This document shows positions 44,941 to 62,760 of a stretch of 64,000 nt of DNA, piece by piece; positions within the stretch are counted from its first letter, which is position 1, and the number at the start of each line of letters is the position of its first letter. Below the pieces are notes generated by a model. The model searched no databases and was not told the origin of the DNA. It saw only the letters and a program-made list of their open reading frames with translations. Where the stretch lies: assembly GCF_000374645.1 (NCBI RefSeq), contig NZ_KB894801.1, positions 310,001 through 374,000 of the forward strand, written 5' to 3'. A program made the translations under genes and the position numbers. This DNA is from Arhodomonas aquaeolei DSM 8974. GTDB lineage: Bacteria > Pseudomonadota > Gammaproteobacteria > Nitrococcales > Nitrococcaceae.

Positions 44941-47496
44941 GTGCCCCGAGTGTCCTCGACGCTTGACCTCCGACAGGCCGTGCATGACCGCATCGCGGAG
45001 CAGGCCCCGCTTGAACAGATCTTTACCGCCATCGTGGTCATGGCCGAGGAGGCGTTGCCCGGGGCCCGGGTGTCCATCATGCGTTACGACCCGGACTCGA
45101 ACACGCTCAGCCTGACCGGGCAGTCGCCGTTTCCGCAGTGGTGCGAGGCCGCCCTGAACCATCTCCCGGTTGCCCCGGATACCGGAACCTGCGGCCGTGC
45201 CGCCTACCTGCGTGAAACCGTCATCACCCGGGACATCGACACGGACCCCGCCTGGACTGGCTACCGCCACGTCGCCCGCCAGGCCGGCCTGCAGGCCTGC
45301 TGGTCGGTGCCGATTCTGGGCGACGACGGCACACTGATCGGCACCTTCGCCGTCTACTACGACCGTCCCCGATCCCCCTCCCGGACCGCGCGCCGGGAGA
45401 TCGAGCGCGCGGCGAGGCTGGTGGCACTGGCAATGGCGCGCCACGACGACCGGCGGCGACACCAGGCCACGGAGCAGCGTCACCAGTCGCTGTTCTTCCA
45501 CCATCCCGACGGCGTATGCGAATTCGACCTCGACGGTAATTTCCTCCACTGCAACGCCGCCATGGAGCACATCACCGGCTTTCGCCGGGCGGGTCTGGTC
45601 GGCCGTCATTTCAACGAATTCGTGACCCCGGAATACCGTGCGCTCACCGAACGGCACTTCGACCTGGCCGCCCGTGGCGTCAGCCAGCACTACGAAACCA
45701 GCGGCATGCACCCCGACGGCCGCCAGTACCCGGTCGAAATGACCAACCTGCCCATCGTCGTCGACGGCAATGTGGTTGGGGTCTACGGAATCTGCCGCGA
45801 CATTGCCGAACGCCGGGCCCGGGACGAGGAGCTCCGACTGCTTCAGCGCGGCATCGAGGCCAGCTCGAACGGTGTCGTCATGGTCGACGCGCAAAGCCCC
45901 GGGCTGCCGATGGTCTACGTAAACCCGGCCTTCACCCACATCACCGGGTACACCCGCGACGAGGCCATCGGCCACAACTGCCGGTTTCTGCAGGGTGCGG
46001 ACACCGACCCGGCGGACATCGAACGGATACGCGACGCCCTGTCCACGCACCGGGACGTCCAGATCACCTTGCGCAACTACCGCAAGGGGGGACAGGCCTT
46101 CTGGAACCGCCTGTCGCTGACGGCCGTCTTCGATGAACAGCAGCGCTGCACCCATTTCATCGGCATCCAGCAGGACGTCACACGAGAGCGGGAAAGCCGG
46201 GCTCAGCTCGCCTACCAGGCCACGCACGACCGCCTGACCGGACTACTCACCCGTGAGGCCCTGATCCAGGAGCTGTCCCGTCTGGACCATGCCCTGCTGC
46301 TGCACATCGACCTGGACGGGTTCAGCCAGGTAAACGCCGGCGCCGGCTACGAGGCCGGCAACCGGCTGCTCCTCTCCGTCTCGCAGCGGTTGGGTGAAAT
46401 AGCGGACGTGAACGCCATGATCGCCCGCCTGTCCGGCGACGGCTTCGCGATCGCGGTCCCGGGCAGGAACAGCACCCGTGTGGGCATACGCCTGATCGAA
46501 AGGCTGCTCGACGCACTCGCCACCCCCTTCGAGAACATCACCGGCCATCCGCTGCAGATCAGCGCGAGCATCGGCGCCGCATCCACGGACTACAGCGGCG
46601 AGGACAAGGAAGCGCTGCTCGGCAACGCCGAAGCCGCGATGCGCGAGGCCAAACAGATCGGCCGCAATACATGGCAATGGTACTCGGCGGAAGTGGCCTC
46701 GCCGGTTCGCGACTATGTCGTTCTCCGCCGCGAGCTCCAGCAGGCCATCGCGGAGGACCAGCTGGAACTCCACTACCAGCCCATCGTCGCCGCGGATACC
46801 GGCGAAGTCCGCAGTCTCGAAGCACTGGTGCGCTGGCGTCATCCCGAACGGGGCCTGCTCGGTCCCGGCGAGTTCATTCCGCTGGCAGAGACCACCGGCC
46901 AGATCGTGGACATCGGCACCTGGGTGCTGCGCCAGGCATGCCGCGACCTGGCCGGGCAGCGGCGGAACGGCGGGCTCGACGTCCCGGTCGCGGTGAACCT
47001 CTCACCGATCCAGTTCCGGCGCACGGGATTCCTGGACATGGTGCGCACGGCGCTGGCCGATAACGGCATCGAGGGCGAAGCACTGGAGGTCGAGGTCACC
47101 GAGAGCGTGCTGCTCTCCGGTGCCGATCAGGCCATAGCGCTGCTGGACGAGCTGCGCGCGATGGGCGTGCGCGTGGCCATAGACGACTTCGGCACCGGCT
47201 ACTCCAGCCTGAGCTACCTGCGTGACCTGCCCATCACCAAGGTCAAGCTCGACCGCGGCTTCATCCGTGACATCAACGAAAGCCGGGGCAATGCCGCCAT
47301 CGTCGAGGCCGTCGCCCACATGGCCCGGCACCTCGGCATAGAGGTGGTCGCTGAAGGCGTCGAAACCACGGCCCAGCATGAAGCACTGCAACGCTTCGGC
47401 TGCGGTCTGCTGCAGGGTTTTCTGTTCTCGCCACCCCGGCCGCTGGAGGCGATCGCGCGCGGCCCGCGCGTGCTGCTCCCCGTCGCCCCCTCCTGA
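44941..47496 (+). CDS. GAF-PAS-LOV-GGDEF-EAL blue-light c-di-GMP signalling protein
   Basis: Cytoplasmic protein of 851 residues. A GAF domain (about 10-165) and a PAS domain (175-290) precede a LOV domain (300-415), which has the flavin motif GHNCRFLQG with photoactive C347, NYRKGGQAFWNRL and the FIGIQQDVT strand. The GGDEF domain has LSGDGF instead of GGDEF, so it is probably not an active cyclase. The EAL domain keeps SLEALVRWRHP, VAVNLSPIQFR, VEVTES, AIDDFGTGYSSLSYL, KLDRGF and EGVET, so an active phosphodiesterase is expected. Blue light would thus change c-di-GMP breakdown. It follows the cyclase/binding-protein pair by 109 bases. Confidence 0.93.
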   Translation: MPRVSSTLDLRQAVHDRIAEQAPLEQIFTAIVVMAEEALPGARVSIMRYDPDSNTLSLTGQSPFPQWCEAALNHLPVAPDTGTCGRAAYLRETVITRDIDTDPAWTGYRHVARQAGLQACWSVPILGDDGTLIGTFAVYYDRPRSPSRTARREIERAARLVALAMARHDDRRRHQATEQRHQSLFFHHPDGVCEFDLDGNFLHCNAAMEHITGFRRAGLVGRHFNEFVTPEYRALTERHFDLAARGVSQHYETSGMHPDGRQYPVEMTNLPIVVDGNVVGVYGICRDIAERRARDEELRLLQRGIEASSNGVVMVDAQSPGLPMVYVNPAFTHITGYTRDEAIGHNCRFLQGADTDPADIERIRDALSTHRDVQITLRNYRKGGQAFWNRLSLTAVFDEQQRCTHFIGIQQDVTRERESRAQLAYQATHDRLTGLLTREALIQELSRLDHALLLHIDLDGFSQVNAGAGYEAGNRLLLSVSQRLGEIADVNAMIARLSGDGFAIAVPGRNSTRVGIRLIERLLDALATPFENITGHPLQISASIGAASTDYSGEDKEALLGNAEAAMREAKQIGRNTWQWYSAEVASPVRDYVVLRRELQQAIAEDQLELHYQPIVAADTGEVRSLEALVRWRHPERGLLGPGEFIPLAETTGQIVDIGTWVLRQACRDLAGQRRNGGLDVPVAVNLSPIQFRRTGFLDMVRTALADNGIEGEALEVEVTESVLLSGADQAIALLDELRAMGVRVAIDDFGTGYSSLSYLRDLPITKVKLDRGFIRDINESRGNAAIVEAVAHMARHLGIEVVAEGVETTAQHEALQRFGCGLLQGFLFSPPRPLEAIARGPRVLLPVAPS

Positions 47497-47670: not shown

Positions 47671-50600
47671 GTGGGAGAGGCAGATCGCACGCGACCCGGG
47701 TGGCGGCTCCGGCGGGTCCCCCGGGTAAAGGCACCGGCGCGGCGGCGCGCCGCCCCCGGCATGGCGGCGGTCATGCTGGCGACAGTGCTGCCAGTGCTGC
47801 CAGTGCTGTCTGCGGCACCCGCTGACGGACAGCGGAACCTGTCCATGGGCGACCAGCCGGTCAGCCGGACATATCCGCATTCGCCCCGGATCGAGCAGGT
47901 CATCGACCTCGACCACTTCGGCCGGTACGCCTTCGAGGCCACCGGTGAACAGCCCGTCGGGATACGCCTGGTCGACCGAATGGCCGGCCCCGGTCCCGCC
48001 CGGACCGGACGGGCCGACCGCTTCCTCGACCGTGGCACCGTCAAGGCCGTCCTGAACGGGGCGGAAAACGGCACCGGCGAGATCGGGCTCACGGTCCACC
48101 CCTTCCACGAGCAGAACGGCGCGGACCTCCCGCGGCTGCCGGAACGCCGCCTGGTGGAGACGCGGCTGCGGGACTATCAGCGCCGCTCCTACTGGATCGA
48201 GGTGTCGGAGCCGCGCACCATCGACGTCGAGGCGGGCGGCCGCTATCTGGCGGACCTCCGGCTGTGGCGCGAAGGCCGCTGGCTGATGGCGGCCGAACCG
48301 ACGGCGGCGGTGCGCGAGCCCGTTACCGGGCAGCCGCTGGAGGTGCGCCGCCTCCATACCCGCCTGAGCCCGGGGCTCTACCGGCTCACGGCATACGGCG
48401 GGCCCGGCAAGCCGTGGTCCACGAATGCCGACGCCGACCCGCTCTACCTGCGCATGGGCATCCCCGAGCTGCCCGCCGGCGCCTGGTCGACACGGCAAGC
48501 CAGCCCCTTCGGCATCGATCGCTACCGCCTGCACACCGACGCCAACGTCTTCCAGCTCGAGCTCCCGGAGGCCCGGCCCGCCAGCCTGCGGGTTGCGGCC
48601 TACGACGACGCCCGCTCACCCTATGAGCCGGGAGGCGGCGCCGGCGGACGCATCGACAGGGACAGCCGGAACCCCGAGACCACGGTGCGCACCGGCGATG
48701 CTGGCCCGGGCCGTTCACGGGATGTGCTGGTGATGGTGGAGCGCGCCCCCGGCACCGAGTACCACCTCGCCTACCTGCGCAACGCGCCGCGCTATGCCAT
48801 CCCCCGGGACACCGACAGCGCCTGGGTAGGCACGCTGGCGCTCGGCGACCCGCGGGACGCCGTAGACGCCACCGCGGTCATCGTCCACGACCCGCCGGGC
48901 GGCCGGCCGGAGGTCAAGGCGGCACGGGCGGTCGAGCTGTCCTCCAGGAAGGCGTGGCGCCGCCGGTTCAACCTGCTGGACACCGTAGACCTCCTCGTGG
49001 AGATCGAGGAGGACGGCACCTACGTCGCGACGATCGACGAGGATTCCAAGGCCAGCGTGGAGCTGCGGGTCGAGCCCCTCGACCGCACCGCCGCCCGCAA
49101 CTTCCGCAGCCGCTGGGACGTCGCCTCCGAGGCGCGCTGGGACCTGGTCAAGGGCTTCTACCGCATCTCCATGCGCCCGCGCCACGGCGACGCCGGCATC
49201 GCCGAGGTCTCGCTCCACCACGCCGCCGCTCCGCCGGACAGCCTCGGCGCCCCCGAGCTGGTGCCGCGACAGGCGAGCGCCGTGTTCGAGGGCATCGCCC
49301 TGAGCCGCCACGACCACGTCCTGGCCAACCGCTACAATTACGGCCGCTCCGGCCTCACGGTGCGGCCCTGGCCGCTCACGCTGGAGAGTCCCCTGCCGGT
49401 GACCCAGTCCGCCGGCCGCACGCGGCGCTTCCGGGTGGCCGACGGCCGCGGCCGGACGCTCATCGCCGAGACACCCGCCGGCGAGCGCCTGCCCCTGTCC
49501 ACCACGGAGAACGGCCCCGGGAAGCCGTCCCTGACGGTGAACGGCCGGACAACGGCCTACATCACCAACGATGGCGCGGAGCCGGTGCGTTACCTACTGC
49601 GCTGGGCCCCGGGACCCGAGCTCCCACCGCCGCCGCTGGAACCGGTCAGCGGCGCCGCGGTGGCGCGCCAGTTGCCGGACTTCCCGGCCCTGGCACCCGG
49701 CCGGCCGGCACGGCTCACGCTCGAACGCCAACAGAAGGCCACCTACCGGCTGGCCGTGGATACCCCGGCCCTGTACCGGCTGGAGACCACCGGACTCCTC
49801 GCCACCGCCGGCGAGCTCCGGACCCGCACCGTCACGCGGCTCGCCGCCGGCCGTGAGAACGGCATCGGCCGCAACTTCCTCATCCAGCGCTATCTCGGCA
49901 GCGGCGACTATCAGCTCACCGTGAACGCCACCGGCCGCAGCGCCGGGGCCCTGGGCGTGTCCCTGGAACGCGCCCCGCTGCGCGACGCCGGCGCGATCCC
50001 GCTGACCGGGGCCGTGCGCACCACCGTGGCGCCGGGCGAAGCGGTGCGCTACCGCCTCGACGTCCCGGAAACCGGCCAGTACCGCATTCGCGCCCGCGGG
50101 CTGAAACGCCCCTTCGCCGTCCAGCTCGCCGGCCCGGACGGCTGGCCCGTGATCCGGCCCGGCCGGCAGACCCCACTGTCGCTCACCCTTCACCCGGGCC
50201 AGCACACCCTCACCGTGCTGCCCCAGAGCGTACCCTCCCGCGCCGTGGTCACCGTCGAGCGCACGGACCGGCCGGCACCGCCGCTGACCGGACACGGCCC
50301 GCACCCGCTACCCCTGAACCGGCCCCGGGAACACACGTGGATGGAGCCGGCGGACGAGGCCGCGCCGCGGACGCCGGACCGGTGGCGGTTCGACCTCGCG
50401 GCAGCCATGCACGTCCGCCTGGATCTACCCGCAGAGATGGACGCCGCCCTCCTCCGCCGCGGCGATGACGGCGACTGGTGGCCGGCGCAGGCCGACATCA
50501 ACGGGTCCCGGGAGGGCTGGCTGGCGCTCGACGCCGGTGCCTACCGGCTGGAGGCACGCAGCCGCCGCCCGGACAACCGTCTCGACTACCGCGTGCGCCT

Positions 50601-52878
50601 CGCCACGCAGGAGCTGCCCCTGGGCCAGCAGCGCGACATCGGCGTGCCCGGCACAGTCCCGTTCGTCCTCGGCGGCGACCGCCTCGTGAAGATCGGCTCC
50701 CTCGGCGAGGGCGACGTGGCCGCCACCCTGCTGGACGCAGACGGCAACAGAATCGCCTTCGGCGACGACCGCCCCGACGACTGGAACTTCCTGATAAGCC
50801 GCCAGCTCCCCGCCGGCCGCTACGCGCTGGCCGTCACCGCCCCCGGCGACGCCAACCGGACGACGGTGACCCTGGATGCCCCCCGCGAGGTCACGGAAGA
50901 CGCCCGCACCCCCGACACGGACCTCACCGTCGCCGACGGCGACGTTCACGTCTACCCGCTCGACCTGCCCGGGCCGGACGCGGCGCCACGCCACGGCCTG
51001 CCGCTGGTGTTCGCAAGCCGGTCCGGCGCCACCCACGGCGTCGCGCTGGAACGCCGGGAAGACGATACGTGGCGGACCGTCGCCACGCGCACCGGCAGGA
51101 CGGTCCGTGGCGGCGCCGTGCTCACCGCGGGCGACCTCGACCACGATTACCGCCTCCGGGTATGGACCCTGGAGACAGCGGCGGCGGGTGTCGACGTGGC
51201 CCTGCGCCTGGACGCACGGGACAGCGACGCCCCGGATGGCAGCGACCCGCGCGACTGGCGGCTCACGCCGCTGGACGGCACCAACGCGGCGCTGGGGCTA
51301 GCGCTCGCGGCACATCCGGGGCCGTTACACACCGCGGAGCGCCGGGACGGTCTCCTGTGGGCCGGCCCTGGTGGTACCTTCCGGGAGGTCCGGGAGGGCT
51401 GGATCCCGGCCCGGGATCGTCCGGTATGGCTGCTGGCGCCGCCGGGCGCCGGAACCCTCGACGCCGAACCGGTATCGCTGGTGCCGGCGACAGTGCGGAC
51501 CATCCCCGCCTCCTCGAACACCACCCTGCCGCTGCCCGTCGGCACGGCCGGGGCGGAACGGCTCAGGATCTGGACCGCCGCGAGCGCGGCGCACACGCCG
51601 GAGCTGCGGGCGTATTCACCCGGTCGCACCGTCGCCGCCACCGCGAGTGACCGCAGCGCCCTGACCGTGGCGCTCCCCGGCGCGACACCCGTAGACGGCG
51701 GGCTGGCCCTGCGCCTGGCGGACGGCAGAGGCGACGCCCCCGTGACCGTCAGCGCGCACGCCCTCGCCACCGGCGATCCGGCCACTGTGACGCCGGGCAG
51801 CACCCAGCTCACGCTGCCGGCCGGCACGGCGGTGAAGGTGACCGGCCCCGCCGGTGCCGCCGACATCGCGCTCACCGCGCCCGCCGGTATCGCCGGCATC
51901 CTTGCCCGCGACGGGGCCATCGAGCGGCTCCTGTGGACCGGTGACAACGCCGGCACGCGCCACACCCGGAGCAACGTCGGCACAATCTGGCTGGCCAATC
52001 CCGGCGACGAGGCCGAAACGGTCGCACTCCGCTGGGCGTCCGCGGCCGGCGACCGGCAGCTGGCCCCGGGCGACTACCTGCGCCTGGGCCCCACCTTCAG
52101 CGGCACCCTGTCTCTGCCGGTCACGCTACCGGCGGGCGCCGAAGGCCGGGTTCAGGTGCACGGCGCGGTGCGCGGCGCCCGCTTCGTCCGCGACGACGGC
52201 CGCACCGGCCCCGCCGTCGACGGCCCGGGCAGCGTCACGGTCGCCGGCCCGGGCACGCTACAGGTGACCCACGCGGATGCGCCGTTCGGGGTCTGGCTGA
52301 CCGCGCCCGACGGCAGCCTGACGGGCTGGCGGCACACCGAACGGCTGGCGCCGCGGGCGCCGTCGCTGCTGAGCCTGCGCGCCAGCCGCCCGACACTGCT
52401 CGCCCTGGAACGGCCGGATGGCCGTACCCGCCTGCACTGGCTCGACACGACGGCCGGCATCGACGCGCTGCTGCCGGCGGGCCGGACACGGCTGCGCGCC
52501 ATGGACGCCGCGCCGTTCGTGCGGCTGACCACTCCCACGCCGATGCCCGCCGGGCTGGGAGCGCCCGTGCGGCTGGGCCCCGGGGAGAGCCGGGCCTTCA
52601 CCTTCGAGCTCCGGCAGCCACGCACCGTGGGGCTCGGTCTCAAGACCGACCGTGAGTCGATCCGCGGCACTCTGGTCGACGCCCGGGGCCGACAGCTCGG
52701 CGACGGCATCGCGCAGATGCACCGGCTCGGGCCCGGGCGCTACTACCTGATCGCCCATCTGCCCCGGGACGAATCCCCGGCACTGGTGCGCTCGGCGCTG
52801 GTGGGCACGCAGCTGCCCGACGACGGCCCACCGGAACGGGTCAGGGAACGCTACAGACAACTGGCAGGCAAGGAATGA
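47671..52878 (+). CDS. Giant exported beta-rich protein coupled to the alpha-2-macroglobulin gene, function unknown
   Basis: A 1735-residue protein, not recognised as a known family. GTG 47671 follows an AGGGGA site. The first ~30 residues are Arg-rich, then a hydrophobic stretch (MAAVMLATVLPVLPVLSAAPA) forms a signal peptide with a long basic n-region. No further membrane segment is evident. The body contains many repeats of a beta-strand signature shaped like G-x-Y-x-L or G-x-Y-x-V (PGLYRLTAYGG, DGTYVATIDED, SGDYQLTVNA, AGRYALAVTAP, PGRYYLIAHLP), resembling PPC-type beta-sandwich domains of secreted enzymes and adhesins. The stop overlaps the alpha-2-macroglobulin ATG, so it is probably a periplasmic partner of that protein. 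Confidence 0.8.
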   Translation: MGEADRTRPGWRLRRVPRVKAPARRRAAPGMAAVMLATVLPVLPVLSAAPADGQRNLSMGDQPVSRTYPHSPRIEQVIDLDHFGRYAFEATGEQPVGIRLVDRMAGPGPARTGRADRFLDRGTVKAVLNGAENGTGEIGLTVHPFHEQNGADLPRLPERRLVETRLRDYQRRSYWIEVSEPRTIDVEAGGRYLADLRLWREGRWLMAAEPTAAVREPVTGQPLEVRRLHTRLSPGLYRLTAYGGPGKPWSTNADADPLYLRMGIPELPAGAWSTRQASPFGIDRYRLHTDANVFQLELPEARPASLRVAAYDDARSPYEPGGGAGGRIDRDSRNPETTVRTGDAGPGRSRDVLVMVERAPGTEYHLAYLRNAPRYAIPRDTDSAWVGTLALGDPRDAVDATAVIVHDPPGGRPEVKAARAVELSSRKAWRRRFNLLDTVDLLVEIEEDGTYVATIDEDSKASVELRVEPLDRTAARNFRSRWDVASEARWDLVKGFYRISMRPRHGDAGIAEVSLHHAAAPPDSLGAPELVPRQASAVFEGIALSRHDHVLANRYNYGRSGLTVRPWPLTLESPLPVTQSAGRTRRFRVADGRGRTLIAETPAGERLPLSTTENGPGKPSLTVNGRTTAYITNDGAEPVRYLLRWAPGPELPPPPLEPVSGAAVARQLPDFPALAPGRPARLTLERQQKATYRLAVDTPALYRLETTGLLATAGELRTRTVTRLAAGRENGIGRNFLIQRYLGSGDYQLTVNATGRSAGALGVSLERAPLRDAGAIPLTGAVRTTVAPGEAVRYRLDVPETGQYRIRARGLKRPFAVQLAGPDGWPVIRPGRQTPLSLTLHPGQHTLTVLPQSVPSRAVVTVERTDRPAPPLTGHGPHPLPLNRPREHTWMEPADEAAPRTPDRWRFDLAAAMHVRLDLPAEMDAALLRRGDDGDWWPAQADINGSREGWLALDAGAYRLEARSRRPDNRLDYRVRLATQELPLGQQRDIGVPGTVPFVLGGDRLVKIGSLGEGDVAATLLDADGNRIAFGDDRPDDWNFLISRQLPAGRYALAVTAPGDANRTTVTLDAPREVTEDARTPDTDLTVADGDVHVYPLDLPGPDAAPRHGLPLVFASRSGATHGVALERREDDTWRTVATRTGRTVRGGAVLTAGDLDHDYRLRVWTLETAAAGVDVALRLDARDSDAPDGSDPRDWRLTPLDGTNAALGLALAAHPGPLHTAERRDGLLWAGPGGTFREVREGWIPARDRPVWLLAPPGAGTLDAEPVSLVPATVRTIPASSNTTLPLPVGTAGAERLRIWTAASAAHTPELRAYSPGRTVAATASDRSALTVALPGATPVDGGLALRLADGRGDAPVTVSAHALATGDPATVTPGSTQLTLPAGTAVKVTGPAGAADIALTAPAGIAGILARDGAIERLLWTGDNAGTRHTRSNVGTIWLANPGDEAETVALRWASAAGDRQLAPGDYLRLGPTFSGTLSLPVTLPAGAEGRVQVHGAVRGARFVRDDGRTGPAVDGPGSVTVAGPGTLQVTHADAPFGVWLTAPDGSLTGWRHTERLAPRAPSLLSLRASRPTLLALERPDGRTRLHWLDTTAGIDALLPAGRTRLRAMDAAPFVRLTTPTPMPAGLGAPVRLGPGESRAFTFELRQPRTVGLGLKTDRESIRGTLVDARGRQLGDGIAQMHRLGPGRYYLIAHLPRDESPALVRSALVGTQLPDDGPPERVRERYRQLAGKE

Positions 52879-55800
52879 GCACTACGGCGAACCGACGTTG
52901 GCGCGACCGGCTGTTTCTGGCACTGGCCGCGCTGCTGATCTGCCAGGCGCTGGCCCCGGCCGCGGCCGCACCACCCGCCAGACCCGACGGCGCCGTGATC
53001 GTGCCCGGGGACTTCCTGCGCCGCTGGGACCCGGTCACCCTGTTCTTCAACGCCGCCCGCGGGCCGGAGGACGGCGGCCCGGAGGCCCACCCGGGCGAGT
53101 ACGTCACCGTCTCCCCGGCGCACCCGGGAGCCTACACCTGGCTGGACGCACACACCCTCCAGTTCCGCCCCGCGGAGCCCTGGCCCGCCCTCTCGGCGTT
53201 CACCTGGCGCTTCGAGGGCGACAGCCACCGCCTGGCGACGCTCATGGCCCCGGCCATCGAGACCCGGCCCACGGATGGCAGCGACGACCTTGCGCCGGTG
53301 GATACCCTGTCGCTGCGCTTCCGCGACCCGGTGGACATCGACGCCCTGGAGCAGATGGTCTCCATCGAGGTGCGAGCCCTGCCGGGTATCGAGCCGGAGC
53401 CGCTGCGCACGCTGGGCGCGGACGACTTCACCATCAAACGCACCGAACGGGCCGGGCGCGACGCGCCGGTGGACTACGTGCTGCGCCTCCGCGAACCCAT
53501 CCCCGCCGGGCGCAAGGCGCTGGTGCGGCTGCGCCTGTCCCTGGACGACCGCCCCGACCAGGCGATGCAGACCGTCACCTTCTCCACCCGCCAGTCGTTC
53601 CGCCCGGCGAGCCTCGGCTGCGCCGGCCAGCAGCGGGCGGCCACCGCCGGCGGGGTGACCTACGCCGCCTCCGATCCGCTGGTCTGCGCCCCCGGCAACC
53701 GGACCATCGAGATCGGCTTCACCGCGGAACCCCGGGACGTGGGCCCCGTGCTGGGACGCAACCTCGTGCGCTTCGAACCCGCGGTGGACAACCTGGAGTA
53801 CCACCTCGCCGGCCGGCAGCTGCGCATCACCGGCGACTTCGCCGCCGACACGCGCTACCGCCTGAGCCTGCTCCCCGGCGATCTCCGGGACACCCACGGA
53901 CGGCCGCTGCAGGCCACCGGCGTGAACAGCCTGTACCTAGCGTTCCCGGCCCGCGAGGACTTTCTGCGCGTCAACCGTGGCGAGGGACGCGCGGTCATGG
54001 AGCGCCAGGGGCCGCGGATGCTGCCCCTGCGCGGCCGCGGCGACACCCGCGTCGACCTGCGCATCCACGCCATCGACCCGCTGGACCTGCAGTTCTGGCC
54101 CTACAGCGACCGCCCGGTCAGCGTCGACGACGACGCCATGCCCCCCGGCCCGGGCGAGGCGCCGGCCCGGGGCCCGCGCCTGCGGGGCAACGACGTCGCC
54201 GCGCAGATCGCGACCCTGGGCTCGCCCAGCATCTCCGAGATCGTCGACCTGCCTCTCGAGCACGGCGGCCCGGCCGCCCGCTTCGGCCTCGACCTCCAGC
54301 CCCGGCTGCGCCGTCTCGCCGGCGAGACGGGTCCGGGCACCTACCTGGTGGGCGTCCGGCGGCTGGGTGCGGGCAGCGAGCGCCAGTGGGTGCGCGTCCA
54401 GGTCACCGACCTCTCGCTCACGGTGGTGGAGGCCGAGGACCGCGTGCACTTCGTGGTCACCTCGCTGGACTCCGGCAAGCCAGTGCCCGGCGCCCGGGTG
54501 CGCGTGCAGACCCGAGCCCGCGGCGACGACCGGCTGCTGGACACGGTGGTGGACGGCCGCACCGACGGGGACGGCGCCCTCGACTGGTCTCCCCGCCCGG
54601 GCCGGCTGTACGGCCCGCCACAGCGGCTGATCGTCTCGAACGGCGACGATACCCTGGTCATCGACCCCCGTGCCGATCCGCCGAAGCGCTATTTCGACAA
54701 CCACTTCGGCACCGACCGGAACTGGCTGTCCTGGACCGGCCACGCCAGTCGTCGCCGGCCCGAGCCCCAGTGGCGCTGCCACCTGTTCACCGAACGCCCC
54801 GTTTACCGCCCGGACGAACCCGTTCACATCAAGGGCTTCATGCGCCGGGTGCACCGCGGCCGGATCGAGAACCGGGATGCGGCGGTAACGCTGGTGGTCA
54901 CCGGGCCCGACGGCAGCGAATGGCGCTACCACCCCGGGCGCACGCCGGCCGGCGGCTTCTATCACCGCTTCAACGAGAAGACCGAGGCCACCGGGGCATA
55001 CCGCATCGCCGCCGAGCTCCAGCCCCCCGGCGAGCGGGCGCGGCGCTGCGCCGAGGTCACGGTGCGCAAGGAGGCCTACCGGATTCCGCGCTTCGAGGTG
55101 CGTGCCAGCGCCCCCGGCAAAGCCCCGCTGGACCGGCCGTTCAAAGTCGACCTCGTTGCCGAGTACTACGCCGGCGGTGTCGCCCGCCAGCGCCCGGTGC
55201 ACTGGCGGGTCACGCAATTCCCCTACCGCTGGACGCCCGCGGAGCGGGAGGGCTTCGTCTACTCCACCGACGCGCGCTTCTCGGGCATCGGCGAGTTCCG
55301 GTCCCGGCCCACGCTGACGCGGGAAGGCACCACCGACGACAAGGGCTTCGCCAGCATCCAGGTGGACCCGGCGCTGGAGCCGAGTGCCCAGCCGCGGCGC
55401 TACGTCATCGAGGCCACCGTGGCGGGCGCCGACGACCAGACCGTGACCGACACCGCCGACGTCCTGGCCCTGCCCCCCTTCGCCCTGGGCCTGAAGGCAC
55501 CGCGCTATCTGGAGGACGCCGAGCGCCTGAAGGGCGCCTTCCTGGTCGCGGGAGCGGACAGCGATCTGCTCGCCGGCAGGGACGTCACGCTGCGGCTGAT
55601 CAAGCGCCGCTGGGCGGCGCGCCTGCAGGCCAGCGACTTCACCAGCGGCGAGCCCGAATACGAGACCGAGGTCATCGACGAGACCCTGCTGGAACGCACG
55701 TTCACCAGCGGCGAGGCACCGACGGACTTCGACCTGCCGCTCGACGACACCGGCGTCTACATCGTGGAGCTCTCCGCCCGGGACACCCTCGGGCGGCTGC

Positions 55801-58685
55801 AGACGGTCCGTCTCGATCTCTTCAACGACGGCAGCGAGCGCGCTACCTGGCCACAGGCCCCGTCGGAGACGTTCACGGTACGCACGGCCAGCGACAGCTA
55901 CGCCCCCGGCGAGACCGCCACCCTGGTGCTGGAGAGCCCGTTCGCCGAGGCACACGCACTCGCCGTCGTCGAGCTGCCCGACGGCCGCAACCGCTACGAC
56001 TGGGTGCCCGTCCACAACGGCAAGGGCACCTACGAGCTGCCCATTCAGCGGACCTTCATGCCCGGCATCCCGGTCCACTTCGTGCTCATGCGCGGCCGTC
56101 TCGACGGCGTGCCGCGGTTCGACCGGGCGGGCCTGGATCTCGGCAAACCGGTCATGATGGCGGCGACCACCCGGGTGGACGTCTCCACCGCCGACCACCG
56201 CATCGACGTGGCCCTGGATCACCCCGACAACGCCCGGCCGGGGGACACCGTAGAGATGACCGTCAGGCTCACGGACCGCGACGGCGAGCCGGTCTCCGGC
56301 GAGGTGACCCTGTGGCTCGTGGACCAGGCCGTGCTGGCCCTGGGCGAGGAGCAGCCCCTGGACCCCCTCCCCGCGTTCATCCGCGAACGACCGGTGCGCA
56401 CCGCCATCCGCGACACCCGCAACCGGGTGGTCGGCTACCTGCCCTTCCGCGAGACGCCCGGTGGCGGCGAGGCGGGCCGGGAGGCCGCGAGCGCGCGCAA
56501 GCTGCTGGACCGGGTCAGCCTCCGCAAGGACTTCCGCAGCGTGCCCTACTTCGAGCCCACGCTGCGGGTGGGCAAGGGCGGCACGGCGACGGTGCGCATC
56601 GAGCTGCCGGACAACCTCACCAACTTCATGGTGCGCGCCGAGGCCGTCGGCGACGGCGACCGTTTCGGCCACGGCACTGGCCGGATCTCCGTGCGTCTGC
56701 CCGTTATCGTCCAGCCGGCACTTCCGCGTTTCGTGCGCTACGGTGACCGCTTCGCCCTGTCCGCCGTTGCCCGCATCGTCGAGGGCGAGGCCGGTGAGGG
56801 ACGTGCCGCGCTCGACGTGGACGGCCTGCGCCTGGACGGCCCCGCGTCGCAGACCTTTACCTGGCCGGACACCGGCACCCGGCGACTGAGCTACGACGTC
56901 GCCGTACCCCTGCCTGAGCGCTGGCCGGACGACCCCGGCGACGTGCCCGGCGCGCACGTCACCCTCGGCGTGGAACGGGCGGCCGACGGCGTCGGCGACG
57001 GCTTCCAGGTGGACCTGCCCGTCCGCCCGGACCGGCGCCCCCTGACCGTTCGCCAGACCGGCGAGCTCGGCGGCGGGGCCGCCTTCGACGTCCCGGCACT
57101 CGGGACCCCGGTCCGCCCGGGCAGCCTGCGCCGCACGCTGGTACTCGCCGACCGGCCCGGGCTGGTGCGCATGGCCGCGGGGCTCGATTACCTGCTTGCC
57201 TACCCCCATGCCTGCACCGAGCAGCGGATCAGCCGCGCCCGCGGCCTGCTGGCGGCGAACGAGCTGCTAGGCCTGCTGCGCCCGGACACCGCGACCACAC
57301 TGATCGACCGGCACGTGCGCAATACCCTGGCCTACCTGGACGAGGTGGTCCGCGAGGACGGCTACGTCACCTTCTGGCCCGGCAGCGGTGACGGCCAGGT
57401 GGGCCTCACCGCGTGGACCTACCTGTTCCTGCTGGAGGCGGACGATGCCGGCTACCGCGTGGAACCGGCCCTGCGCGAGCGCGTGCGCAGCGCCCTGCGA
57501 CGCGCCCTGCGCGGGGACTACAGCCACTTCCTCGACAGCTACACCGAGCGCTCGATGGCGCTGACCGCCCTCGCCCGGGGCGGCGACCTGGACGCCGGCT
57601 ACGCCGCCGAGCTGGCGCGGCGCACCCAGTTCCTGCCCCAGGAGGCGCTCGCCCACGTCACCCGGGCGCTGGCCGGCGAACAGGACCCGAGCCCGGCGGT
57701 GCTGAAGCGCCTGGAGGAGACCCTGTGGGACGGGCTGATCTTCAAGCTGCGTCACGGCAACACCGTCTACGCCGGGCTCAAGGACCGCCAGACCCAGGAC
57801 TCGCCGCTGATCCTGCCCTCGGAGACGCGCACCGTCGCGCAGACCCTGCGTGCCGCCAGCGCCGTGCCCGGCAGCGGCGAGCGCGAGCGGATCCTGGCCG
57901 ATGCCCTGGTCACCCTGGGACGGGACGACGGCTGGGGCACTACCAACGCCAATGCCGAGGCCATCCTCGCCCTGAACGACTTCCTCCTCGCCGGGGAATC
58001 GGCGACCCGGCCGGTCACGGTCTCCGCGCAGTGGGATAACACCAGCAGGACGATCCGCGTGGGCGGCAACCGCCCCGTCACTGCGACGCCGCTGCCCTCG
58101 CCCGGACAAGTGAGCCTGAGCGCCCCCGCGCTGGGTGACGGGCGCAGCCTGGCCGTGATGGCGCAGAGCCGGTACGTGCCCCTCCAACGCGGCGACCGGG
58201 TGGCCGCGCAGAGCCACGGCTTCGTGGTGGAGCGCAGCCTCGTACGGGTGGGCGGCGGCGACACCGCCGACCGACGGGTCGCACTGGACACCGCCGGGAC
58301 GGCCGTCGACTTCACCGTGGGCGACGTCGTGGAAGACCGACTCACGCTGGTCAACCCGGAGGAGCGTCACCACGTGGCGGTGGTCGTCCCCCTCGCCGCG
58401 GGCATGGAACCGCTGAACCCCGAGCTGGACACCGCCCCGCCGGAGGCCACGCCCGGCCGGCCACTGACACTGGCGCCGGCCCACGTGGCGCGCCTGGACG
58501 ACCGCGTGGCGTTCTACTACGAGACCCTGCCCAAGGGCACCTACGAGTTCGCCTTCCGGCTCCGGCCCCAGGTCCCGGGACAGTTCGTCCAGCCCGCCGC
58601 CTACGCGGAGATGATGTACCAGGAGGAGGTGCGGGGACACGGTAACGGCGCGCTGATCCGTATCCGGCGGCCCGACGGCGGATAG
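52875..58685 (+). CDS. Bacterial alpha-2-macroglobulin with thioester (YfhM-like)
   Basis: Periplasmic protease trap of 1936 residues, larger than E. coli YfhM (about 1650). A signal peptide (RDRLFLALAALLICQALAPA) is followed by macroglobulin domains; the MG region FTERPVYRPDEPVHIKGFMR and the A2M domain PYFEPTLRVGKGGTATVR with LPDNLTNFMVRAEAV are clear. The thioester motif is C1447-T-E-Q1450 in YPHACTEQRISRA, within the alpha-helical barrel domain. The Cys in the signal region (LLIC) does not form a canonical lipobox, unlike lipoprotein YfhM. It should bind attacking proteases covalently and is encoded just before PbpC, which repairs peptidoglycan. Confidence 0.94.
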   Translation: MSTTANRRWRDRLFLALAALLICQALAPAAAAPPARPDGAVIVPGDFLRRWDPVTLFFNAARGPEDGGPEAHPGEYVTVSPAHPGAYTWLDAHTLQFRPAEPWPALSAFTWRFEGDSHRLATLMAPAIETRPTDGSDDLAPVDTLSLRFRDPVDIDALEQMVSIEVRALPGIEPEPLRTLGADDFTIKRTERAGRDAPVDYVLRLREPIPAGRKALVRLRLSLDDRPDQAMQTVTFSTRQSFRPASLGCAGQQRAATAGGVTYAASDPLVCAPGNRTIEIGFTAEPRDVGPVLGRNLVRFEPAVDNLEYHLAGRQLRITGDFAADTRYRLSLLPGDLRDTHGRPLQATGVNSLYLAFPAREDFLRVNRGEGRAVMERQGPRMLPLRGRGDTRVDLRIHAIDPLDLQFWPYSDRPVSVDDDAMPPGPGEAPARGPRLRGNDVAAQIATLGSPSISEIVDLPLEHGGPAARFGLDLQPRLRRLAGETGPGTYLVGVRRLGAGSERQWVRVQVTDLSLTVVEAEDRVHFVVTSLDSGKPVPGARVRVQTRARGDDRLLDTVVDGRTDGDGALDWSPRPGRLYGPPQRLIVSNGDDTLVIDPRADPPKRYFDNHFGTDRNWLSWTGHASRRRPEPQWRCHLFTERPVYRPDEPVHIKGFMRRVHRGRIENRDAAVTLVVTGPDGSEWRYHPGRTPAGGFYHRFNEKTEATGAYRIAAELQPPGERARRCAEVTVRKEAYRIPRFEVRASAPGKAPLDRPFKVDLVAEYYAGGVARQRPVHWRVTQFPYRWTPAEREGFVYSTDARFSGIGEFRSRPTLTREGTTDDKGFASIQVDPALEPSAQPRRYVIEATVAGADDQTVTDTADVLALPPFALGLKAPRYLEDAERLKGAFLVAGADSDLLAGRDVTLRLIKRRWAARLQASDFTSGEPEYETEVIDETLLERTFTSGEAPTDFDLPLDDTGVYIVELSARDTLGRLQTVRLDLFNDGSERATWPQAPSETFTVRTASDSYAPGETATLVLESPFAEAHALAVVELPDGRNRYDWVPVHNGKGTYELPIQRTFMPGIPVHFVLMRGRLDGVPRFDRAGLDLGKPVMMAATTRVDVSTADHRIDVALDHPDNARPGDTVEMTVRLTDRDGEPVSGEVTLWLVDQAVLALGEEQPLDPLPAFIRERPVRTAIRDTRNRVVGYLPFRETPGGGEAGREAASARKLLDRVSLRKDFRSVPYFEPTLRVGKGGTATVRIELPDNLTNFMVRAEAVGDGDRFGHGTGRISVRLPVIVQPALPRFVRYGDRFALSAVARIVEGEAGEGRAALDVDGLRLDGPASQTFTWPDTGTRRLSYDVAVPLPERWPDDPGDVPGAHVTLGVERAADGVGDGFQVDLPVRPDRRPLTVRQTGELGGGAAFDVPALGTPVRPGSLRRTLVLADRPGLVRMAAGLDYLLAYPHACTEQRISRARGLLAANELLGLLRPDTATTLIDRHVRNTLAYLDEVVREDGYVTFWPGSGDGQVGLTAWTYLFLLEADDAGYRVEPALRERVRSALRRALRGDYSHFLDSYTERSMALTALARGGDLDAGYAAELARRTQFLPQEALAHVTRALAGEQDPSPAVLKRLEETLWDGLIFKLRHGNTVYAGLKDRQTQDSPLILPSETRTVAQTLRAASAVPGSGERERILADALVTLGRDDGWGTTNANAEAILALNDFLLAGESATRPVTVSAQWDNTSRTIRVGGNRPVTATPLPSPGQVSLSAPALGDGRSLAVMAQSRYVPLQRGDRVAAQSHGFVVERSLVRVGGGDTADRRVALDTAGTAVDFTVGDVVEDRLTLVNPEERHHVAVVVPLAAGMEPLNPELDTAPPEATPGRPLTLAPAHVARLDDRVAFYYETLPKGTYEFAFRLRPQVPGQFVQPAAYAEMMYQEEVRGHGNGALIRIRRPDGG

Positions 58686-58691
58686 CACGCC

Positions 58692-60935
58692 GTGAGAACG
58701 ACGGCACGGGCATTGGCGGGACGCTCCGGCCGGGCATTCGCGCACCGGCGGGTCCTGTACACGGTGCTACTGCTCGCCGTCGTGGTGCTGCTTGGCGGCG
58801 TCCTGCACACGGCCTGGAAGCGCTCCGCGCTGAAGGCCCCCGCCGCCAGCCACCTGGTAACCGACCGGTACGGACACTACCTCGCGGAGGTCGGCGGCCC
58901 GGAGCCCGGCCGCTACGGCTACTGGCCGCTCGCGGACGTCCCGCCGCGCATCGCCGCGGCCACCGTCGCCCTGGAGGATCGGCGTTTCCGCTACCACCCC
59001 GGAGTGGACCCGGTCGCTGTCGCCCGTGCCCTGTGGCAGAACCTGCGCAGCGGGCGCGTCGTCTCCGGCGCCTCCACCATCGCCATGCAGGTCGCGCGGA
59101 TGCAGAATCCCGCCCCGCGGACACTCCCGAACAAGGCAATGGAGGCCGTCACCGCGGTGTTCATGACCCTGCGCCACGGCCGGGACGCGGTGCTCCGGCA
59201 GTATCTCCGGCTGGTGCCCTTCGGCAATGGCAGTCACGGCATCGCCCACGCCGCGCGCGTCTACCTGGACAAGCCGGCCGCGGACCTCAGCTGGGCGGAG
59301 ATCGCCTTCCTCTCGGGTATCCCCCACGCACCGGAACGCCTCGACCCGCTCACCCAGGACGGCCGCCGCCGCGCAGCGGCCCGGGGCCGGCGCATCCTCG
59401 ACGCCCTGGCGGAGATGGGCGTGATCGATGCCGGCCAGCTCGACCTCGCCCGGCGCCAGATCGGCGCCCTCCACGTACACCGACGGCCGCCACGACCAGC
59501 CATGGCGATGCACGCCATCATGGCGCTGGCGGACCGGATCGCGCCGCTGCCGGAGACATCCTCGCGCACGATCGCCGCGACGCTCGACCTGAACGCCCAG
59601 CGGATGGCGAACCGTCACCTCCACCGCTGGCTGTCCCGCCTGGCACCCCGGGGCGTGCAGCACGCCGCCATCCTCGTCGTCGACCGCGACGACATGGCGG
59701 TGCGGGCGCTGGTGGGCTCCGCCGGCTTCTTCGACGAGGACGCCGGGGCCCTCGACTACACCGCGGTCCGGCGCTCGCCGGGCTCGGTACTCAAGCCCTT
59801 CGTCTACGCCCTGGCCCTGGACCGGGGCGTCATCCGCCCGGACACGGTGCTCTGGGACCGGCGCGGCCTGTCCGCCGGCATCGACAATTCGGACCGGACC
59901 TACCTCGGCCCCATGCTGCCCCGCCGCGCCCTGGCCAACTCCCGCAACGTCCCGGCCACCAACCTGGTGCGCACCGTCGGGCTGGAGACCACCTACGCCC
60001 ACCTGGAGCGCCTGGGCCTGCACGCCGACCGCCGGCCGTCGCGGCACTACGGCATCGGCCTCGCCATCGGCACGCTGCCGGTGCGCCTGCGCGACGTCGT
60101 CGCCGCCTACGGCGCACTGGCCAACGACGGCCTCTACCGCCCGCTGCGCTGGCACGCGGCGCAGCCCACCGCGCCCGGCAAGCGTGTGCTCGGCGCGGAC
60201 GCGACACGGCTGGTCACCGCCTTCCTCTCGGACCCGATGGCCCGACTGCCGGTGTTCTCGCGCATGGGCTACCAGGAGTACGACTTCCCCGTCGCCACCA
60301 AGACCGGCACCAGCCAGAGCTACGCCGACGCCTGGAACGTCGTCTATACCCGGGACTACATCGTCGGCGTGTGGATGGGGCGCGCCGACGGCGGCCCCAT
60401 GAAGGGAGTCAGCGGCGCGTCCGGCCCGGCCGGCCTCGCCCACGACGTGCTGACCGGCCTCTACCGGCTGCCGGGCACAGCCGACCGCCCTGAGCCGTTC
60501 CCGGCACCCGTGCACTACCGACGCGAGTCGCTGTGCAGTGCCCGCCCGTCGAGGTCCGCCAGCCAGTGTCCCCGTAAGCTGACGGAGTGGGTGCCCACGG
60601 CCGCTGGAAACACCACGTCCGCCGACACGGTAACGGCACTGGCCCGAACGACCGCACGGCAGGCGTCGGCGACGTTGCGGATCAGCTCGCCGCCGCCCGG
60701 TACCACGGTCATCCGCAACCCGGAGACACCGGACGATCTGAACCGCCTGCGCCTGACGGTGGACGCCGAGCCCCGGGGGATGCAGGTCGTGTGGTACGTG
60801 GACGGCCGCCCGCAGGTGGTGCAGCGCGCCGACGAGCCGTTTCTGTGGCCCCTGGACGACGGCCGCCACGTCTTCCAGGTCCGCCTCCCCTACCGACCGG
60901 AGCGCTCGCCGCCGCTGGTGCTCACGGTACGGTGA
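58692..60935 (+). CDS. pbpC: Penicillin-binding protein 1C (PbpC)
   Basis: Bifunctional peptidoglycan synthase of 747 residues. It has an N-terminal helix (VLYTVLLLAVVVLLGGV), a transglycosylase domain with catalytic E95 in ALEDRRFRYHPGVD and GASTIAMQ, and a transpeptidase domain with S365-V-L-K368, then SRN, then TKTGTS. The C-terminal ~90 residues are the PBP1C-specific domain. GTG start lies seven bases after the alpha-2-macroglobulin stop, as in the yfhM-pbpC pair of E. coli. Acts at the periplasmic face of the membrane. Confidence 0.95.
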   Translation: MRTTARALAGRSGRAFAHRRVLYTVLLLAVVVLLGGVLHTAWKRSALKAPAASHLVTDRYGHYLAEVGGPEPGRYGYWPLADVPPRIAAATVALEDRRFRYHPGVDPVAVARALWQNLRSGRVVSGASTIAMQVARMQNPAPRTLPNKAMEAVTAVFMTLRHGRDAVLRQYLRLVPFGNGSHGIAHAARVYLDKPAADLSWAEIAFLSGIPHAPERLDPLTQDGRRRAAARGRRILDALAEMGVIDAGQLDLARRQIGALHVHRRPPRPAMAMHAIMALADRIAPLPETSSRTIAATLDLNAQRMANRHLHRWLSRLAPRGVQHAAILVVDRDDMAVRALVGSAGFFDEDAGALDYTAVRRSPGSVLKPFVYALALDRGVIRPDTVLWDRRGLSAGIDNSDRTYLGPMLPRRALANSRNVPATNLVRTVGLETTYAHLERLGLHADRRPSRHYGIGLAIGTLPVRLRDVVAAYGALANDGLYRPLRWHAAQPTAPGKRVLGADATRLVTAFLSDPMARLPVFSRMGYQEYDFPVATKTGTSQSYADAWNVVYTRDYIVGVWMGRADGGPMKGVSGASGPAGLAHDVLTGLYRLPGTADRPEPFPAPVHYRRESLCSARPSRSASQCPRKLTEWVPTAAGNTTSADTVTALARTTARQASATLRISSPPPGTTVIRNPETPDDLNRLRLTVDAEPRGMQVVWYVDGRPQVVQRADEPFLWPLDDGRHVFQVRLPYRPERSPPLVLTVR

Positions 60936-61032
60936 GCCGCGAGCCGCCGGCGTGGCCCCACGGGCTCGGCGCGCGCCGGCCGGATCTGATCAAATACGCG
61001 CAAGACTTGATACGAGCGCCGTCGGAGGGAGC

Positions 61033-61902
61033 ATGAAAGGGGACAGGGACGACGACGCCGAACGCTTCGGGGTGATGGACGCGGTCCTGCCGAAGGACAT
61101 GGCCAAGCGCGCGGAACGCGCGGGCGCGGAGAAGGCCGAACAGGACGGACTGAGCCTGCTGGCGCTGGCGGCGATGGCGGGTGCCTATATCGCGTTCGGC
61201 GCGACGTTTGCGGCCTCGGTGTCCGCCGGTTTCGACGGCGAATTCCCGATCGGGCTCGGTAACATGCTGGGCGGACTGGCCTTTTCCCTCGCCTACGTGC
61301 TCGCGATCGTTGGCGGTGCCGAGCTGTTCACCACCAACAACCTCATGGTCATGGCGTGGGCACACGGGCGGCTGCCGACCGGGTGGCTGCTGCGTGCGTG
61401 GGGTATCGTGTTCGTCGGCAACTTCATCGGGGCCGCCGCCACCGGTGGCATGCTTATCGTCGCCGGACAGCATGCCGAGTCCGCCGGCGCCGTGGGCACC
61501 TCGCTCCTCGAATCCGCGGCCCGGCTGAATGCCCTCGGCTTCGTCGAGGCCCTGTTCCTCGGGATCCTGGGCAACACGCTCCTGTGTCTCGGGGTCTGGC
61601 TGACCTACAGCGCACGCTCGACCACGGACCGGATCCTGGCCCTGATCCCGCCGGTCGCGGCCTTCTATGCGCTCGGCCTGGAACACGCCGTGGCGGTGAT
61701 GTTCTACCTGCCCTGCGCCGCCTTCATCGGTGTCCTCGCCGAGCCCGGCTTCTGGACCATGGTGCCGCAGGCGCCGCCCGCGATCACGCCCGGCGGGTTC
61801 CTCCGGGTGCTGCTCCCGGTGACACTGGGCAACGTCATGGGAGGCGGCGTGCTCGTCGCGCTGGCCTACTGGTTCGTCTACCTGCGGCCCGGCCGGGTCT
61901 GA
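61033..61902 (+). CDS. Formate/nitrite transporter family channel (FocA-like)
   Basis: Inner-membrane channel of 289 residues with six helices. Family motifs are GGAELFTTNNLMV, LGNTLLCLGVWL and GLEHAVAVMFYLP; its His corresponds to the conserved pore His of FocA/NirC, then GNVMGGGVLVALAYW. An N-terminal ~45-residue charged extension is present. A GGAGGGA site precedes ATG 61033. Formate is a sensible substrate because the genome encodes the Fds dehydrogenase 35 kb away; nitrite or hydrosulfide are alternatives. Confidence 0.9.
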   Translation: MKGDRDDDAERFGVMDAVLPKDMAKRAERAGAEKAEQDGLSLLALAAMAGAYIAFGATFAASVSAGFDGEFPIGLGNMLGGLAFSLAYVLAIVGGAELFTTNNLMVMAWAHGRLPTGWLLRAWGIVFVGNFIGAAATGGMLIVAGQHAESAGAVGTSLLESAARLNALGFVEALFLGILGNTLLCLGVWLTYSARSTTDRILALIPPVAAFYALGLEHAVAVMFYLPCAAFIGVLAEPGFWTMVPQAPPAITPGGFLRVLLPVTLGNVMGGGVLVALAYWFVYLRPGRV

Positions 61903-62118
61903 GCGCCACCACCTTCCCGCAGCACCGGGGATCCACCGCCGCGAGGCGGATGACAAGCGGCAGCGGGGCACCGTGGGGCCGGTATGGCGCCCGAAGCACC
62001 GGCCCCCGGCCTCCCCGTGCCATCGATCATGCCGCACCGGCGCGACGATGGCTGCCGGACCGGGGGTCAGCCAGGCGGAAGCCTTCCGGCACCATCGTCG
62101 CCGGCGCCCGCACCAGAC

Positions 62119-62760
62119 TCAGTGAACGCGGAGCACAATCGCTCGGCAGTACGTCGGATCCTCGGCGGACTCCCCGGGCGTCGGGACATACGGACCGACA
62201 GTCTCGATCTCCGTGCAGGTACCGGCTTCAACAAGCTTTTCGATCCGGTCGCGGAACCCGTCGCGCTCGAACATCGCCTCGTTCACCGTGAACACGATCA
62301 CGCCGTTGGGCCGGACCACCCGAACGAGGTCGTCGAGGCCCTCGGGACCCACGTGGCCCCGGGTGAACACGCCCATGCAGACAGCCGCCCCGAAACCGTC
62401 ATCCGCGAACGGGATGTCCTCGCCGAGAAACGCCTTGCGCAGCACCGCATAGGCCTCCTTCCTGCCGGCAACCTCCAGCATGTCGTCCGAGGCGTCGAGG
62501 CCCTCCACATGGGAGTAGCCGAGTTGCCGCAGCCACGGGCCGATCATGCCGGTCCCGCAGCCGGCATCAAGGAGCGGGGTGTCGCCCGACGCGACATAGC
62601 GCGTGATCAACGGGAGGCAGACCACCGGGTGCGAATAGCCCGCGCCCGTCAGATCGTCCTCGTAGGTCTCGGCCCAATCGCGATAAATGGCCGCAAGCTC
62701 TTCCCGGGAACCACTCCCGTACACCCTGGAAAGTCGTTGGTCTATTGCATCGTTCGCCAT
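62119..62760 (-). CDS. Class I SAM-dependent methyltransferase (METTL27-like)
   Basis: Cytoplasmic methyltransferase of 213 residues. SAM-binding motif I is LLDAGCGTG (63-71), with the acidic residue in VEGLDASDDML and motif IV-like FGAAVCMGVFTRGHV. The N-terminal lead (SREELAAIYRDWAETYEDDL) is like the METTL27/WBSCR27 group. The substrate is unknown. AAGGAG lies seven bases before the ATG. It is divergent from the GlxA-type regulator across 343 bases. Confidence 0.85.
   Translation of the reverse strand: MANDAIDQRLSRVYGSGSREELAAIYRDWAETYEDDLTGAGYSHPVVCLPLITRYVASGDTPLLDAGCGTGMIGPWLRQLGYSHVEGLDASDDMLEVAGRKEAYAVLRKAFLGEDIPFADDGFGAAVCMGVFTRGHVGPEGLDDLVRVVRPNGVIVFTVNEAMFERDGFRDRIEKLVEAGTCTEIETVGPYVPTPGESAEDPTYCRAIVLRVH

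Follow-up and report, generated by a model that had tools for sequence, protein, structure and literature searches.

The locus described here lies at positions 47671-60935 of a 64,000-nucleotide stretch of the Arhodomonas aquaeolei DSM 8974 genome (NZ_KB894801.1, positions 310,001-374,000; hereafter the window), and encodes a giant exported protein, an alpha-2-macroglobulin (A2M) and PbpC, the class A penicillin-binding protein 1C (PBP1c). It is an A2M-PBP1c system with a third, new component, and the giant has no family name. We read it as a fixed giant-A2M-PbpC module (the cassette) that makes up a third kind of operon for bacterial A2Ms and whose giant is probably a periplasmic binding scaffold, and put the probability of this reading at roughly 0.55. 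Two kinds of operon have been described for bacterial A2Ms, one shared with PBP1c and the other the six-gene mag operon (PMC5764988, PMC3328433), and A2M and PBP1c have been proposed to act as a defence-and-repair pair (PMC4498604, PMC5764988, PMC3328433). Among the matches listed in the open-licence literature, no work deals with the giant or with a three-gene A2M operon.

An original prediction, made from the sequence alone, had proposed a three-gene operon in which the giant gene overlaps the A2M start, and this layout was borne out: all three open reading frames lie on the plus strand where it had placed them. The adjacency of A2M and pbpC also held, the exact gap from A2M stop to PbpC start being six bases and not seven. 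The features of the locus are as follows.

47671-52878, plus strand: gene for the giant exported protein, 1735 codons with a GTG start and predicted tandem beta-sandwich domains (open reading frame list, translation, models and homologues).
47671-47829, plus strand: probable Sec signal region, giant residues 1-53, judged by eye from the translation.
52875-52878, plus strand: four-base overlap of the giant stop with the A2M start, from the reading frame coordinates.
52875-58685, plus strand: A2M gene, 1936 amino acids, ATG start, with a signal peptide without lipobox.
57213-57224, plus strand: A2M thioester motif CTEQ, Cys 1447, located in the A2M translation.
58692-60935, plus strand: pbpC, 747 amino acids, GTG start, assigned by Pfam domains and TIGR02073.

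The window A2M has the features of a type I protein, namely a CxEQ motif, bait-region and macroglobulin (MG) domains and a gene beside PBP1c; its Pfam matches above cut-off are bMG10 (1.1e-26), A2M_BRD (8.1e-15), MG2 (6.6e-14), A2M (1.2e-11) and bMG3 (2e-9). PbpC carries Transgly (1.4e-45), Transpeptidase (4.6e-16) and BiPBP_C (4e-10) above cut-off and matches TIGR02073 at 3.7e-137, its 458.9 bits falling slightly below the cut-off of 494.2. The first 50 or so residues of the giant appear by eye to form an export signal, with an arginine-rich n-region, a hydrophobic stretch and an end of small residues. A scan covering sigma-70 type promoters returned 0 sites, where 0.4 were expected.

Conserved gene order argues that the three genes form a fixed module. 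Profile searches were made with a nine-row giant profile, and with it a scan of genome contigs from 84,980 species recovered 46 giant loci. The same scan with a single sequence had returned nothing, a failure that we attribute to the query rather than to rarity of the giant. Among the profile-scan loci with at least 1 kb downstream of the giant, the next gene on the same strand encodes an A2M in 33 of 34; nine of these loci belong to near relatives of the Rhizobium group, and without them the count is 24 of 25. PbpC follows within 1.5 kb of the A2M in 27 of the 28 loci with at least 1.5 kb there. The A2M model behind the gene-order count was built from cassette A2Ms, and BLAST with the proteins of the window, L014 and L017 agreed with it. 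All three genes are also found together on six of seven Rhizobium plasmids, in split form on one of the six (L020), and the seventh has giant and A2M side by side.

The association appears exclusive in the other direction as well. A cassette-type A2M, scoring at least 1248 bits, occurs in four of 398 Pseudomonadota genomes, the next best A2M reaching 124 bits and 149 genomes holding distant A2Ms only; the same four genomes (G000, which is the Arhodomonas genome, G589, G571 and G458) hold the strong giant matches, 4/398, with the G458 giant cut at contig ends. In plasmids, an A2M match was found in 156 records, and the seven in which it covers at least 80% are the seven with the giant. At 32 control A2M loci (29 from mostly top-scoring members of the 149 distant-A2M genomes, plus E. 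coli and two order relatives) the giant was absent throughout, even though 23 have an adjacent PbpC and 21 of these have at least 3 kb of upstream DNA. The E. coli unit consists, as had been claimed, of yfhM and pbpC only: in MG1655 yfhM is preceded by sseA, which lies on the opposite strand. Absence of the giant from other yfhM-pbpC loci had been named as a ground for refutation, and the outcome is split: E. coli-type A2M-PbpC loci lack it (0/32 control A2M loci), yet all four members of a separate A2M group among the 398 genomes have it.

Phylogeny separates the same two groups. In a quick A2M tree without bootstrap, from which 19 of 73 A2M rows (near copies and truncated rows) had first been removed, 27 cassette rows and 27 others fall on two sides of one branch with a Shimodaira-Hasegawa-like approximate likelihood ratio (SH-aLRT) support of 100 and a length of 1.14 changes per column. 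E. coli YfhM lies across this branch from the giant-linked A2Ms, and the PbpC tree shows the same split between 22 giant-linked sequences and 22 others. Once six near copies from Rhizobium and every locus lacking a full PbpC had been left out, 22 loci remained, over which the pairwise distances of the three proteins are correlated (r 0.97, 0.90 and 0.90; Mantel P 0.001 each). These separate trees and correlated distances indicate that the three genes travel together, a co-inheritance that goes beyond the operon first proposed. In three Rhizobium pairs the ratio of nonsynonymous to synonymous substitution rates (dN/dS) lies at 0.11-0.12 in the A2M and at 0.15-0.18 in the giant, so the genes tested are under purifying selection there. 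The giant frame is not a chance one, because homologues in other phyla are also single long frames and because of these dN/dS values of the giant.

By record title, the 46 loci come from Gammaproteobacteria, Alphaproteobacteria, 'Deltaproteobacteria', Acidobacteria/Vicinamibacteria/Thermoanaerobaculia, Myxococcota, SAR324 and Schekmanbacteria, with one partial, weak locus from Spirochaetales, and the host titles read as mostly environmental bacteria. A search with the single protein found the giant in one of 58 near relatives besides its own genome and in 2 of 368 other genomes of the class. In the class of G589, a genome that we take to be alphaproteobacterial because its cassette groups with Rhizobiales, 4 of 289 genomes likewise gave strong profile matches. 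The genome searches by single protein and by profile, that of the 398 Pseudomonadota genomes included, scored no more than 2 to 8 candidates in any one genome. Weak matches were rejected as giants; these number 4/398 (22-44 bits) and 9/289 (19-33 bits), span about 50-290 residues and lie in frames of 138-687 amino acids. On plasmids the giant is limited to the seven Rhizobium records, typed from non-mobilizable to conjugative, where it is annotated once as a 'lysozyme inhibitor LprI family protein' and three times as hypothetical, the remaining three records being unannotated. We also rejected the giant as a phage gene; a single-sequence scan of viral contigs, which reaches close relatives only, found none. 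Widespread and already assigned homologues had also been named as grounds for refutation; the homologues are widespread, but they are not assigned.

The giant was called undescribed, and no curated family model in Pfam or NCBIfam reached its cut-off on the window protein. At E<=1 the full-length sequence matches no Pfam family, and its NCBIfam matches all stay below threshold; taken separately, residues 55-1075 yield PLipase_C_C, CarboxypepD_reg and FDP_fam, again sub-threshold. A profile search of PDB sequences returned 0 matches. AlphaFold2 models of its two halves were built from alignments of 39 rows (N-half) and 31 rows (C-half), the window included; coverage removed 3 of 42 homologues from the first and 11 of 42 from the second, and L070 was dropped from both. 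The models, with mean predicted local distance difference test (pLDDT) scores of 89.4 for residues 55-1075 and 89.8 for residues 1062-1735, are nearly all strands, and neither has a stretch of more than four residues with pLDDT below 50. They depict a chain of beta-sandwiches, in agreement with the repeated beta-sandwich signatures first noticed in the sequence. Structural comparison (Z score, root-mean-square deviation (rmsd) and aligned residues) and profile self-comparison place the following domains, all predicted.

49681-49974, plus strand: PPC/collagen-binding-like domain, residues 671-768 (1nqj, Z 13.8, rmsd 1.8, 92 aligned; self-profile matches).
49984-50274, plus strand: related beta-sandwich domain, residues 772-868 (profile match to 671-770, P 1e-7 to 3e-7; structural rows spanning model 715-927).
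50287-50610, plus strand: beta-sandwich domain, residues 873-980 (model 819-927, Z up to 10.8 to clostridial sandwich domains; PliG 4dy5, Z 9.8, rmsd 2.7, 94 aligned).
50620-50886, plus strand: PPC-like domain, residues 984-1072, with a conserved DDWNF (3afg, Z 11.4, rmsd 2.3, 88 aligned; profile P 7e-8 to 671-770).
52516-52815, plus strand: C-terminal PPC-like domain, residues 1616-1715 (3jqw, Z 12.0, rmsd 1.9, 96 aligned, over 1598-1713; PliG 4dzg over 1617-1713).

PPC/collagen-binding domains are the best structural matches of the giant (1nqj for residues 671-767 and 3jqw for 1598-1713), followed by PliG. The window models have the PPC fold, and the sequence itself does not reach the Pfam gathering score for PF04151. 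Self-comparison of profiles relates residues 671-770, 772-868, 984-1073 and 1616-1715 to one another (P about 1e-7 to 2e-6 for most pairs) and other regions weakly. Across 39 giant rows, PF04151 PPC matches 10 at E<=0.1 (best 8.6e-6), Y_Y_Y 10 (1.2e-4), bMG6 three (4.1e-4) and CarboxypepD_reg two (4e-8), and NCBIfam adds FDP_fam in 22 of 39 (2.3e-5) and one large-adhesin match (5e-7). Well-conserved motifs in the window giant are DYQRRSYW (residues 168-175), WRRRFN (429-434), GRNFLIQRYL and DDWNF. Counting strands in the models, we estimate that the whole giant may hold about fifteen sandwiches. PPC/collagen-binding domains are known singly or in small numbers on secreted peptidases. Several giant domains share the fold of those in ColG and ColH (s3; PF04151), with weak sequence matches in the 10 rows of 39; unlike such proteins, the giant is a chain many domains long and has no peptidase match. 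Foldseek and VIA-align rows for neuropilin, SIDT, botulinum haemagglutinin and clostridial enterotoxin sandwiches we read as common fold, and rejected as signs of kinship. In one Magnetococcales operon (L040, 3764-7777; the same operon as L142) the giant frame has 1337 amino acids and covers 39% of window residues 1062-1735.

The cassette A2Ms differ among themselves at the thioester. C-x-E-Q is kept in 23 of the 38 rows that cover the site. Outside the Rhizobium group it is present in 23 of 24 covering rows, L042 reading TTEA; within that group the cysteine is lost in all 14 (13 Ser, 1 Pro). The cysteine-less A2Ms of the group are the following.

Loci L017-L019, L021, L022, L046, L048, L050-L052, L055-L057 and L062: Rhizobium-group A2Ms without the thioester cysteine.

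The Pseudomonas A2M MagD traps without a thioester and depends on a partner from its own operon (PMC5764988). MagD of P. aeruginosa (type II) resembles the cassette proteins in being an A2M with dedicated partners, and lacks CxEQ as the Rhizobium cassettes do; by the published definitions these cassettes belong neither to type I nor to type II. That the giant replaces the covalent step in Rhizobium is a guess. By eye, cassette A2Ms have Sec-type signals, and a crude scan finds a lipobox in one of 41 (L031, doubtful) and none in the window A2M, whereas E. coli YfhM has LAGC. A contrast in lipoboxes between the cassette and all other A2Ms failed (1/41 against 3/32), and we keep only the contrast with YfhM. 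In L020 (NZ_CP092352.1, Rhizobium sp. C104, 11416-25394) each cassette gene is split into two or three frames, by decay or sequencing error.

Upstream of the operon in the window, on the same strand (44941-47496), is a gene for a GAF-PAS-GGDEF-EAL cyclic-di-GMP protein, and two Rhizobium plasmids also have EAL-domain genes some 10 kb upstream of their cassettes. Downstream (60952-64000) are a formate/nitrite transporter, a methyltransferase on the other strand and a DJ-1/PfpI-AraC (GlxA-like) regulator, which appear unrelated.

In the mechanism that we favour, the giant would be a soluble periplasmic rod, a long chain of PPC/collagen-binding-like beta-sandwich domains, that most likely holds the A2M, for which no lipid anchor is seen in this group, near peptidoglycan and the membrane-bound PbpC. 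When the outer membrane is breached by a predator, competitor or host, the A2M would trap the incoming protease, the giant might position the complex, bind the wall or the attacking lytic enzyme, or do both, and PbpC would patch the wall. Gene order, co-inheritance, the distinct groups of A2M and PbpC, a beta-sandwich build, the near-absence of lipoboxes from these A2Ms and an LprI-like N-terminus in some giants come from the computation; that the giant is periplasmic, touches A2M or PbpC, binds the wall or serves defence is inferred. We consider a binding scaffold the best reading because a steady third gene, an architecture of binding domains and an A2M without an anchor of its own come together here. 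Two published cases speak for it: a PPC-bearing collagenase segment was tested for collagen binding and, by the title of the paper, binds (PMC6168687), and MagB-MagD exemplifies a partner that stabilises an A2M (PMC5764988). Of the three roles originally offered for the giant, scaffold, bait or second trap, the scaffold fits best, and the other two find little support. The envelope-defence function put forward with them fits the published A2M-PBP1c proposal and would apply here by extension.

Several observations weigh against this reading. The LprI-bearing giant of L060 (806-11454, Competibacteraceae) has no A2M in the following 5 kb, the sole such case among the 34 loci; in L034 the genes for giant and A2M precede a wax ester synthase/DGAT gene on their own strand (21297-23042), not PbpC; and in L053 PbpC starts about 1 kb after the A2M. 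The A2M tree flagged 23 of 54 rows for unlike letter make-up, the window's included, and the distance correlation derives partly from plain common descent. Co-inheritance, moreover, shows linked function rather than contact. Relatives match adhesin, Y_Y_Y and carboxypeptidase-regulatory families below threshold, which would suit a generic beta-sandwich protein equally, a shared fold shows no function, and the sandwiches of the giant may be plain spacers. Finally, the same crude scan finds a lipobox in only 3 of 32 control A2Ms, which makes the near-absence of lipoboxes in the cassette a weak contrast.

It is possible that the giant is instead an array of inhibitors, whose PPC/PliG-like sandwiches, with LprI where present, would bind lysozyme-like enzymes, so that the operon neutralises protease and lysozyme and repairs the wall. 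In each half of the giant, the better structural matches include PliG, an inhibitor of g-type lysozyme that is periplasmic by title (4dzg, Z 10.8, rmsd 2.7, 94 aligned at 671-768; Z 11.5, rmsd 2.1, 95 aligned at the C-terminal domain), and single domains of the giant share its fold. The solved PliG chains, however, have only 107-114 residues, the likeness is one of fold comparison, and the fold is common to the non-inhibitors ColG and ColH, which score equally well or better. An LprI-like cysteine motif lies near the N-terminus of 11 of 43 aligned giants (ten Alphaproteobacteria by title and the Competibacteraceae L060), and PF07007 LprI scored above the Pfam cut-off in all five giants picked for the motif. 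LprI domain proteins are thus like the N-terminal domain of some giants, but the window giant is without a Pfam match to LprI. Whether LprI inhibits lysozyme by itself is also disputed: deletion of ScwA, an LprI-domain protein, left lysozyme sensitivity unchanged, and its authors stress that the role of LprI is unproven (PMC7933661). A proposal that PBP1c repairs lysozyme damage, related in PMC5764988, would suit an inhibitor array, which on balance we regard as unlikely.

A decoy, either protease bait or a second protease trap beside the A2M, would account for a large, beta-sandwich-built protein whose gene adjoins that of an A2M. Foldseek rows name chains of E. coli A2M (4ziq) and complement C5 among the N-half matches, and of cobra venom factor, C5b, C4b and human A2ML1 among those of the C-half, and bMG6 matches three of 39 relatives (best E 0.00041). 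Any sandwich chains may give such rows, however, and their figures are probability 0.18-0.47, template modelling (TM) score 0.06-0.08 and rmsd above 30 Å for the N-half, and 0.20-0.75, 0.05-0.10 and above 32 Å for the C-half. Neither Pfam nor NCBIfam matches the window giant to an MG, bait, CUB or thioester family, and it has no low-pLDDT stretch (more than four residues under 50) able to be an exposed bait, which leaves a decoy very improbable. A further proposal turns the cassette towards local wall building and away from defence, with the giant organising a PbpC-dependent peptidoglycan zone and the A2M guarding the site against the cell's own proteases. PbpC is reportedly linked to Caulobacter stalks, and the mostly environmental hosts of the giant would suit such a role. 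The name pbpC occurs nine times in an article about the stalk-specific peptidoglycan of Caulobacter (PMC6373972). Against this stand the trap motif kept in 23 of 38 cassette A2M rows, which fits trapping of foreign proteases, and the defence and repair of the published A2M-PBP1c proposal (PMC4498604, PMC3328433); we find the wall-building module distinctly improbable.

A module built around a scaffolding giant can be set beside both known A2M systems. It shares with type I YfhM-pbpC of E. coli and Salmonella an exported A2M with a bait region and CxEQ and an adjoining class A PBP partner; it is unlike the E. coli pair in having more than two genes and, by crude scan, in lacking the lipobox in the window A2M. 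The mag operon has six genes and was contrasted by its authors with the type I PBP1c operon (PMC5764988). Compared with mag and type II, giant operons have one giant partner, PbpC, and CTEQ in the window A2M. It is tempting to speculate that the three proteins act as one periplasmic machine, in which the A2M would trap the protease, the giant would capture or inhibit an enzyme that cuts peptidoglycan, using its PliG/PPC-like domains (and LprI in some lineages), and PbpC would rebuild the wall at that spot, the Rhizobium giant having taken over enough of the trapping for the A2M thioester to be lost; we hold this whole to be rather doubtful.

If our reading is true, the cassette would add to the two described operon types of bacterial A2Ms a third, which comes with a large partner protein and in hosts that are, by title, mostly environmental. 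The idea that A2M and PBP1C cooperate becomes testable where a third protein may hold both together. Moreover, the Rhizobium copies amount to a natural experiment, a module whose A2M is without its thioester cysteine and, in three pairs, under purifying selection.

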